Part shown: in pieces, positions 6,331 through 51,909 of the stretch
How the letters are laid out: each line of letters begins with the position of its first letter
How positions within the stretch are numbered: position 1 is the stretch's first letter
Assembly (NCBI GenBank): GCA_024405155.1
Contig: JAKSPC010000001.1
Span: forward strand, 182,788 to 246,787
Length of the DNA stretch: 64,000 bases
Direction of reading: 5' to 3'
Source: Lachnospiraceae bacterium
GTDB lineage: Bacteria > Bacillota > Clostridia > Lachnospirales > Lachnospiraceae
Notes under the pieces: model-generated
What the model was told of the DNA's origin: nothing
What the model saw: the letters and a program-made list of their open reading frames with translations, nothing else
The model's database searches: none
Position numbers and translations under genes: made by a program

Positions 6331-6517
6331 TTTGCACGGAAACGTTTATGGGCAAGCATGCGATTTGCGGAGGCTTTTCAGATTTTCAAGTTTTTCAAGC
6401 CCGTAAAGCAGGGTCCACGAGCGAAGCGAGATGGCACCCCTGCGGGGGCGCAGAAAAACTTAGAAAATCGAAAAACGGAGCAGCCAGCAGGCGGAACATA
6501 AACGTTTCCGGTGCAAA
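6331..6517. repeat. Structured intergenic element, copy A (about 187 bp)
   Basis: The ends form an inverted repeat: 6331-6350 pairs with 6497-6517 with one bulged base. Inside are the conserved arms GGAGGCTTTTCAGATTTTC (from 6369) and TTAGAAAATCGAAAAACGGA (from 6460), which pair imperfectly with each other. The apex (about 6400-6450) is GC-rich and self-complementary. Copies B (19323-19503) and C (51730-51909) share the inner arms but have different outer stems. The element fills most of the gap between the epimerase and UroD-like genes. Any open frame inside it is incidental. Confidence 0.8.
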
Positions 6518-9624: not shown

Positions 9625-9718
9625 CGCGGGCGGATTGCGACGTGTGAGTGCTTTGCGACGAGTAGCAGCTTGCTGCTCCCGAAGGCGCAAACACTCACCG
9701 CGCAGGGTACCGCCCGCG
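9625..9718. repeat. Nested-hairpin intergenic element D between convergent genes
   Basis: Three nested inverted repeats are visible: CGCGGGCGG at 9625-9633 with CCGCCCGCG at 9710-9718; GTGAGTGCTTTGCG at 9644-9657 with CGCAAACACTCAC at 9686-9698 (one base missing); and AGCAGC/GCTGCT at 9664-9677. It sits between converging genes, so it could stop transcription from both sides. Its right end (9697-9718) recurs as an exact 22-bp inverted copy at 15442-15463. Confidence 0.75.
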
Positions 9719-15441: not shown

Positions 15442-15463
15442 CGCGGGCGGTACCCTGCGCGGT
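15442..15463. repeat. 22-bp inverted copy of the end of element D
   Basis: Positions 15442-15463 (CGCGGGCGGTACCC followed by TGCGCGGT) are the exact reverse complement of 9697-9718. The copy again sits between convergent genes (trkH and yhaM). The remainder of element D is absent, so this is a truncated relative or a functional core. Confidence 0.75.
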
Positions 15464-19314: not shown

Positions 19315-19322
19315 GTATGGCA

Positions 19323-19503
19323 GTGCGGCGCAGGAATGTGGATGCGTGCGCATTGTGAAGGCTTTTCAGATTTTCAAGGTTTCCCAGACCGGAGTGCGCA
19401 TGGGGGCTCGTGGGGCCCCGTGCGCGCCTACGCAGGTCGCAGGAAAGCTTAGAAAATCGAAAAACGGAACAGCCGCGCGAGCAGACAGGTTCCTGCACCG
19501 CAC
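19323..19503. repeat. Structured intergenic element, copy B (about 181 bp)
   Basis: Outer arms GTGCGGCGCAGGAA (19323-19336) and TTCCTGCACCGCAC (19490-19503) pair over 13 of 14 positions. The conserved inner arms AGGCTTTTCAGATTTTCAAG (19359-19378) and CTTAGAAAATCGAAAAACGG (from 19448) match copy A. The apex is a different hairpin, GCGCATGGGG (19396-19405) with CCCCGTGCGC (19416-19425). It occupies the thrC-thrH gap and ends 24 bases before the thrH start. Confidence 0.8.
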
Positions 19504-19527
19504 GGAGATAAAGAAATGAGGTATCAT

Positions 19528-21075: not shown

Positions 21076-21242
21076 AAAATACATATAATTGGAAACTTTT
21101 GCTCGTATTATATGTATTTTTCGGAAGAATTGCGAAGGAAAATACATATAATTCGCACGTTTTGGTTAAAAAATATGTATCCGGAAAGGGTTTCAAGCAA
21201 AAAAATACATATAATAGGGGCAATTTGTCTGTATTATATGTA
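21076..21242 (+). repeat. 63-bp tandem palindromic repeat array 1 (three units)
   Basis: ATACATATAAT begins at 21079, 21142 and 21205, exactly 63 bp apart. Each copy is followed about 17 bases later by ATTATATGTAT or a close variant (21107-21117, 21173-21180 degenerate, 21233-21242). Unit 1 extends to a 14-bp perfect inverted repeat (21076-21089 with 21107-21120). The loops end in a TTTTG-like motif; the separating segments differ. The array fills the middle of the 314-base rmlA-rmlB gap; the rest (21243-21357) has no evident feature beyond the rmlB ribosome site GAGGAGG. Confidence 0.88.
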
Positions 21243-51728: not shown

Positions 51729-51729
51729 A

Positions 51730-51909
51730 GACAGCGGCCGGAGAACCGGATGCGAGCGCTTTGCGGAGGCTTTGTCATTTTCGAGTTTTCAAAAGCACGT
51801 AATAAGGCGGGGAGAGGGGTCCCCGCCTTTGCTTATGAAGTGCGTATTGAAAACGTAGAAAATAAAAGCCGGAGCAGCCAAGCGAGCAGCTGGATCTCCG
51901 GCCGTTGTC
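51730..51909. repeat. Structured intergenic element, copy C (about 180 bp)
   Basis: Outer arms GACAGCGGCCGGAGA (51730-51744) and TCTCCGGCCGTTGTC (51895-51909) pair over 14 of 15 bases, the exception being a wobble. Inner blocks TTTGCGGAGGCTTTG (from 51760) and GGAGCAGCC (51871-51879) match copies A and B; the middle arms are more diverged. The apex AAGGCGGGGA (51804-51813) with TCCCCGCCTT (51820-51829) is terminator-like. It separates two convergent genes. Confidence 0.75.

Follow-up and report, generated by a model that had tools for sequence, protein, structure and literature searches.

A family of long intergenic hairpins with shared centres and locus-specific paired outer stems in a Lachnospiraceae genome

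A stretch of 64,000 nucleotides from a Lachnospiraceae genome (the window) carries an intergenic hairpin whose inner arms recur at other places and whose outer stem differs at each place. The question raised by this locus is whether such a hairpin is a structured RNA, a hairpin-type mobile element or an mRNA processing signal, which were the three readings offered by the original prediction. The strand of positions 6331-6517 folded into a single long rod of −84.2 kcal/mol (z −7.55), and none of 200 dinucleotide shuffles folded as well. The rod is flanked on both sides by + strand genes. Its extent was set by the pairing profile together with the length table, and its parts were assigned as follows.

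6333..6515, + strand: whole rod, family 1 copy L002, 183 bp by the −36..+36 rule
6332..6350, + strand: left locus-specific outer arm, pairing with 6497-6516 in the minimum free energy fold; its own right flank ranked first
6351..6368, + strand: left near-outer segment with short mismatch loops and a conserved TTGC, from the pairing profile and per-position base composition
6369..6404, + strand: left conserved inner arm, GGAGGCTTTTCAGATTTTCAAG, exact at 16 places and with ≤3 mismatches at 27
6405..6445, + strand: GC-rich apex of the GGTCC..GCACCC type, the same type in 15 of 33 copies
6446..6483, + strand: right conserved inner arm, TTAGAAAATCGAAAA-like (≤3 edits) in 28 of the 28 copies examined
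6497..6516, + strand: right locus-specific outer arm with one bulged base, pairing with 6332-6350

The outer stem with one bulge was as predicted. In the Rfam comparison, tRNA was the sole family in the window to reach its gathering score, and the one match at the element up to E 10 scored 12.7 bits against the 191 needed. Two further copies are located in the window.

19321..19504, + strand: second copy (L017), between genes which, from their sequences, we take to be thrC-like and thrH-like
51729..51909, + strand: third copy, divergent, 117.3 bits with the covariance model, between convergent genes

The inner arms are common to the copies at 6331, 19323 and 51730 (the last loosely), as had been claimed, and each copy has its own outer stem. 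In the whole genome, a 22-base inner-arm pattern with ≤3 mismatches was found at 27 places and its reversed control at 0. A covariance model was built from 26 copies (alignment A1, made with L007 and L015 omitted and before five further copies emerged from the covariance search). Searching the own genome with this model gave 51 matches, of which 33 were strong (≥57.8 bits); the remaining 18 were 17 weak antisense matches at these strong places and one weak relic at C11:13731, in which most of the centre is gone. The 33 strong copies constitute family 1. Nothing indicates that L002 came first among them, although it had been named the founding copy. L105 and L111 (left flanks) and L078 contain sequences resembling family 1 relics, with the centre deleted and the outer stem still recognisable, and a very long rod with doubled GAAAAT-like segments at L151:2581 may be a distant family 1 copy.

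By covariance search with stricter filters that lose weak matches, family 1 was absent from 60 relatives, 24 of them congeneric, and from 396 other genomes of the bacterial family, a set that overlaps the 60 relatives. One exact degenerate pattern occurred 0 times in 84,980 species genomes plus viral contigs, and blastn of the rod against phages and plasmids gave no match, with very near records perhaps excluded from both searches. The top-scoring windows inspected in 400 kb each of the congeners G005 and G017 contained other hairpins and no analogous rods. In the titles and abstract openings of the literature covered, a scope that most subscription journals lie outside, no description of this hairpin family was found.

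Family 1 copies are 175-196 bp long in 31 of 33 cases, about 184 bp being typical, and the two long copies (230 and 235 bp) have a larger apex. Outward from a conserved GGAGG, TTGC pairs with GCA(A/G) and a short loop is located at −5, followed by four pairs (mostly GCGC), a loop at −10/−11, three pairs and a loop at −15/−16. The outermost part consists of about 19 pairs from −17 to −35 with an abrupt edge near −35 (29 copies). Pairing at the loop positions was below the cross-locus controls (0.24 vs 0.50 at −15, 0.24 vs 0.44 at −10 and 0.07 vs 0.27 at −5), indicating that mismatches are preferred there. Base composition in 28 copies was weakly conserved at −35..−23 (≤0.37 bits), with (C/T)ATG preferred at −22..−19 and high conservation inward of −13. 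L011, L056, L075 and L076, whose arm anchors or lengths were unfit, were omitted from the pairing profile, and L057 was also omitted from the composition. The apex is variable as well, and mostly paired. The stem is GC-rich and both flanks are AT-rich; at the rod edge, GC content drops from 0.67 to 0.40 on the left and from 0.53 to 0.22 on the right.

Pairing of the outer arms is specific to the locus. The own left and right flanks paired with a median score of 37.75 (28 copies), while left flanks paired with the right flanks of other copies at a mean of 20.9 (sd 4.2, largest 39.5). The own right flank ranked first in 21 of 28 rows, in agreement with the claim that the outer stems differ by site and still pair; L011, lacking a left outer arm, ranked 25th. 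In 26 copies, 94.5% of the cells pair, changes on both sides were present in 25 of 40 pairs compared with 11.7 in shuffles, and covariation cells numbered 107 compared with 28, with 0 of 500 shuffles as high in either count. Covarying pairs are thus above the level expected by chance. Whole-structure covariation counts also exceeded all slid versions, a comparison that favours the real structure since it was derived from the same alignment. The finding that had been named as fatal to the original prediction, three copies only and no excess of covariation, was contradicted by the 33 copies and by the shuffles. The outer stem of L025 is near perfect over 20 bp. In 464 kb of the own genome, 13-mers of the outer arms recurred elsewhere 21 times vs 11.6 in shuffles, and these matches were short and scattered.

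Covarying base pairs are the usual evidence for functional RNA. A selected RNA structure in the mRNA, serving processing, stability or attenuation and kept by true compensatory substitutions, would explain the strong covariation, the preferred loop positions and the location of copies directly behind stop codons, often between co-oriented genes. Outer-stem wobble was also somewhat commoner in the sense of the flanking genes (raw counts of 24 vs 15, made up of 12+12 vs 9+6). However, a selected RNA is expected to favour G-T pairs over A-C, and the G-T and A-C mismatches numbered 38 and 57 in 32 copies (L011 omitted) and 20 and 27 in 29 copies (L011, L056, L075 and L076 omitted), showing no G-U preference on a functional strand. 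The G-T/A-C balance was the same in sense and antisense copies (Fisher p 0.82), the two orientations are near equal (14 vs 11), no Rfam family matched, and identical centres carry unrelated outer stems. The RNA reading is considered unlikely on these grounds.

The uncoupling of centre and stem was seen in several tests. Inner identity was not correlated with outer similarity in 406 pairs (rho 0.02, p 0.72), and a second, differently defined test of the link gave a weak correlation (rho 0.14, p 0.003). L004 and L013 are 100% identical in the inner part, and their outer arms are no more alike than those of other pairs. Outer mismatches became no more frequent as centres diverged (rho −0.23, p 0.22), the median number of stem mismatches out of 19 being 3.0 for near-consensus centres and 2.5 for diverged ones. 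In the divergence scoring, one inserted base in L001 and L005 was counted as 7 differences, which wrongly ranked these copies as diverged. L011, L056, L075 and L076 were omitted from the 406-pair and centre-divergence tests, and L011 and L056 from the test with rho 0.14. Weak residual homology was detected among the outer arms, 13 of 465 pairs scoring ≥8 compared with 0 for reversed arms and 1 for flanks, so the outer arms look like old element parts and not like target DNA.

Identical centres with unrelated outer arms do not fit simple stepwise compensation. Compensatory change had been taken as strong evidence of a kept fold, and as a sign of selection on an RNA this part of the original prediction is not supported, given the same observation, the weak or absent link of inner and outer similarity, the flat mismatch counts and G-T pairs not exceeding A-C. 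The centre seems to move, or to become homogenised, without regard to the stems. Most simply, the centres of different copies would be replaced or made uniform, with the outer arms drifting under a pairing constraint at the DNA level. Since the covariation of family 1 is uncoupled from centre age and its mismatches are strand-symmetric, DNA hairpin dynamics may suffice to produce it.

The same data bear on the idea that the target is duplicated in inverted form whenever the element inserts, creating the outer stem. Site-specific stems, near perfect in some copies such as L025 (20 bp), would suit this idea. It is nevertheless very improbable, as near-consensus centres carry as many stem mismatches as diverged ones, the GC-rich stem ends at an abrupt edge against AT-rich flanks on both sides, and the outer arms are residually homologous to each other.

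Using a home-made codon-usage gene caller, no gene was found to span any of the 33 copies. The description as a large structured intergenic element is supported; the copies are many, dispersed and intergenic, as in short palindromic mobile elements. Both neighbours are on the element strand in 14 copies and on the opposite strand in 11, an even distribution of orientation (p 0.69), and the others are located in 7 convergent regions and 1 divergent region. A stop codon is present within 40 nt of the rod edge in 31 of 33 copies. Since 25% of the intergenic bases are divergent in a 464-kb sample, a single divergent copy among 33 is fewer than expected (p 0.001 by intergenic length, 0.005 by region number). 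Convergent regions were used in excess of their share of length (p 0.024) though not of their share of regions (p 0.21).

The location behind stop codons raises the question of whether the copies are ordinary intrinsic terminators that share a repeat by chance. Among the convergent copies, ≥5 T in 8 bases were found on the right in 4 of 7 and ≥5 A in 8 on the left in 5 of 7, antisense copies have a tail on the terminator side in 6 of 10, and L001 and L027 are terminator-like by eye. On the other hand, T tails are confined to 4 of the 14 sense copies, and wrong-side runs are equally common (left A in 9 of 14 sense copies, right T in 7 of 10 antisense copies; L011 was omitted from these counts). 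Near-identical centres of about 115 nt are no terminator property, and this explanation is scarcely credible. Insertion into terminator loops as a general rule for family 1 was likewise not supported, T tails being present in 4 of 14 sense copies and A/T runs being equally common on the wrong side.

The flanking gene pairs were compared with congener DNA sampled from G014 (857 kb), G017 (404 kb) and G005 (400 kb). Eleven of the 33 pairs were adjacent in the sampled DNA and 22 were not. In 9 of the 11, the distance between protein matches was 13-140 bp compared with 195-277 bp in the own genome, and no such hairpin was present. Four of these 9 gaps are <35 bp, below the rod size, and the other five gave fold scores of 6.7-19.6; on 260-base windows the fold score was 37.8-49.9 in 32 of 33 copies with a background mean of 19.9, and a score of 0 denotes a gap too small for scoring. 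The remaining two pairs (L004 and L024) had 638 and 787 bp between them. The G014 gap matching L026 contained a small terminator-like hairpin of other sequence. In this survey a second match of L013 (gap 1054, 40% identity) was disregarded, and L017, present on two overlapping stretches, was counted once. At L017, the thrC-thrH spacing is 213 bp in the own genome, −4 bp (overlap) in G014 and 32 bp in a more distant MAG, and thrC was directly upstream of thrH in 3 of 93 thrH loci, namely in these three genomes.

The absence of the rod from gaps between syntenic pairs makes it look as if, at these loci, the whole rod, stem included, was added in this lineage. Protein identity at the compared genes was 56-96%, and the congeners are so far that the gaps give neither an insertion age nor a base-exact empty site. 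Among the best 80 relatives retained for a flanking protein, most bore Clostridia titles and a few those of Treponema or Spirochaetaceae. The family 1 loci and the congener sites without the hairpin form a natural set for testing the spread of hairpin repeats in bacteria.

The window also contains a second, similarly built family.

9625..9718, + strand: family 2 hairpin element, CGCGGGCGGATTGCG...GGTACCGCCCGCG
15443..15460, − strand: family 2 right end; the preceding 90 bases lack a family 2 left end

Family 2 is about 100 bp long (CGCGGGTGGATTGCG...GGTACCGCCCGCG) and, of 25 genomes of the genus, was found in the own one alone, with 39 copies (L181-L220 except L218) whose outer stem is mostly GCGCGGG. 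Although not all 39 stems read GCGCGGG, 266 of 273 positions in the outer 7 bp are paired; nine copies differ from GCGCGGG at ≥2 positions and are paired at 61 of 63. Since the copies were gathered with GCGCGGG-bearing queries, the observed share of stems with another sequence is a minimum. Of 11 copies with an 88-nt centre, five have 0-2 inner changes, and their stems have 1 to 5 changed positions, all paired, one stem reaching 14 bp. At least two family 2 stems are terminator-like by eye, AAAAGCCCCCTAAG in L183 and AAGCCCCCCGG in L181. Family 2 is an independent replicate of the behaviour of family 1; the two families have no evident sequence kinship, and both covary strongly in their outer stems. 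A third module, CGACCG(G/A)AGCGGAGCGTAGA preceded by a hairpin, lies inside the apices of two family 1 elements and the arms of two family 2 copies, at the following sites.

L007, minus strand, 899: third module
L164:4567: third module
L159:4722: third module
L165:12830: third module

These observations suggest another possibility, that the conserved centre is a mobile module which enters existing hairpin tips, the outer stems being those of the targets. In its favour, family 2 modules that differ by 0-2 changes per 88 nt occupy very dissimilar stems, fully paired and in at least two cases terminator-like by eye, the third module is nested in both families, and outer mismatches are flat with centre age. 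Against it, a 464-kb scan of the own genome for 100-base hairpins picked up elements of both families, arrays of short repeats and several further hairpins, none of which, judged collectively by eye, carried the family 1 core flanks or resembled an empty family 1 stem, and the 9 short syntenic congener gaps are without such a hairpin. The outer stems of family 1 moreover are constant in length, favour particular mismatch positions and lean towards a CATG-like sequence, and therefore look like element parts, and 10 of 14 sense copies lack a T-run on their transcribed 3' side. Tip insertion is regarded as the less probable account. We likewise propose only tentatively that the hairpins form a modular system, conserved units being inserted or exchanged at the tip of another hairpin whatever the sequence of its stem; if true, it would amount to tip-directed spread of DNA hairpins, the outer stems being locus-specific shells.

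Other repeats were seen as well. Short inverted-repeat arrays of TACATATAAT/ATTATATGTA are present in the window at 21099-21242 and at L150:9961, L156:571, L157:121, L160:2521 and L167:14161. Another long repeat of about 230 nt with inverted pairs of ATGTGAGCC/GGCTCACAT is present at L153:14041, L159:15001, L163:13741, L165:151 and L168:5701. The congener G017 has arrays of ATAGTGGGACA/TGTCCCACTAT instead (L130:15081, L136:13881 and L145:11121). In L011 (C41:2829-2990) the left outer arm is replaced by GCGCGGGCGG, which resembles a family 2 end, and this copy is a possible recombinant.

Among the three readings first offered, a hairpin-type mobile element fits best, with copies in both orientations, many of them in a single species among the genomes searched, and congener gene pairs without such a hairpin; a kept RNA fold is not supported. 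We therefore favour, with moderate confidence, the interpretation of family 1 as a lineage-specific, non-autonomous palindromic mobile element that behaves like ERIC, REPIN or MITE elements. Under this interpretation, the whole rod of about 184 bp would have entered intergenic sites, mostly just 3' of stop codons. The central ~115 nt would then have been overwritten repeatedly among copies, by gene conversion or centre replacement; gene conversion is inferred from the incongruent inner and outer patterns. The outer arms would escape this overwriting and drift, and their complementarity could be held at the DNA level by arm-to-arm template switching at an extruded hairpin, by selection on the DNA hairpin, or by both. 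The en-bloc stem differences of family 2 copies with 0-2 inner changes are explained no less well by centres moving into other stems.

Target-site duplication is a criterion for MITEs of DD(E/D) transposons. It was not found in 29 copies (L011, L056, L075 and L076 omitted), the longest direct repeats of the flanks averaging 3.59 compared with 3.78 in swapped loci, and family 1 is for this reason not filed as a classical MITE. Terminal inverted repeats conserved in all copies were also absent, as the terminal arms differ by copy. The genome has two Y1 transposase genes, a long one (C14:3007-3762 / L168:3007-3762) and a short one (L169), presumably RAYT-like and IS200-like, respectively. GGGACGG palindromes lie beside the long gene, and no family 1 copy was found in the adjoining stretches examined. 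No cognate transposase for family 1 was recognised in the genome, and no reverse transcriptase matched.

REPIN/REP elements with RAYT transposases are dispersed, extragenic, palindromic and non-autonomous, with compensatory changes on both sides of the REPIN hairpin and an apparently constrained length (PMC3116915). Family 1 resembles REPINs in being dispersed, extragenic and palindromic, in its compensatory both-side changes and in its near-fixed length, whereas REPINs have conserved ends and a variable spacer and family 1 has conserved inner arms with variable ends and apex. Family 1 measures about 184 bp and, unlike REPINs, no RAYT was seen beside it; neither conserved REP ends around a variable spacer nor a cognate RAYT with the same palindrome was found. 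ERIC/RU-1 of enterobacteria is a 127-bp class present in many intergenic regions and called MITE-like (PMC2759123). Family 1 shares with it the presence of repeats in many intergenic regions. The ends of ERIC are conserved and its hosts belong to another phylum. The bcr1 element of the Bacillus cereus group is a group-specific repeat with mobile-element traits, as is family 1; locus-specific paired outer arms are not known for bcr1.

Quasi-palindrome correction by template switching is described as a DNA-level process in a yeast coding sequence (PMC8604942). It makes inverted-repeat arms alike without RNA selection, and it is a mutational mechanism and not an element family. Like intrinsic terminators, family 1 copies are located behind stop codons and some have A and T tails; unlike them, 10 of 14 sense copies are without a T-run and the family has a long conserved centre. 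With a conserved middle and free ends, this mobile-looking palindrome is the reverse of the REPINs.
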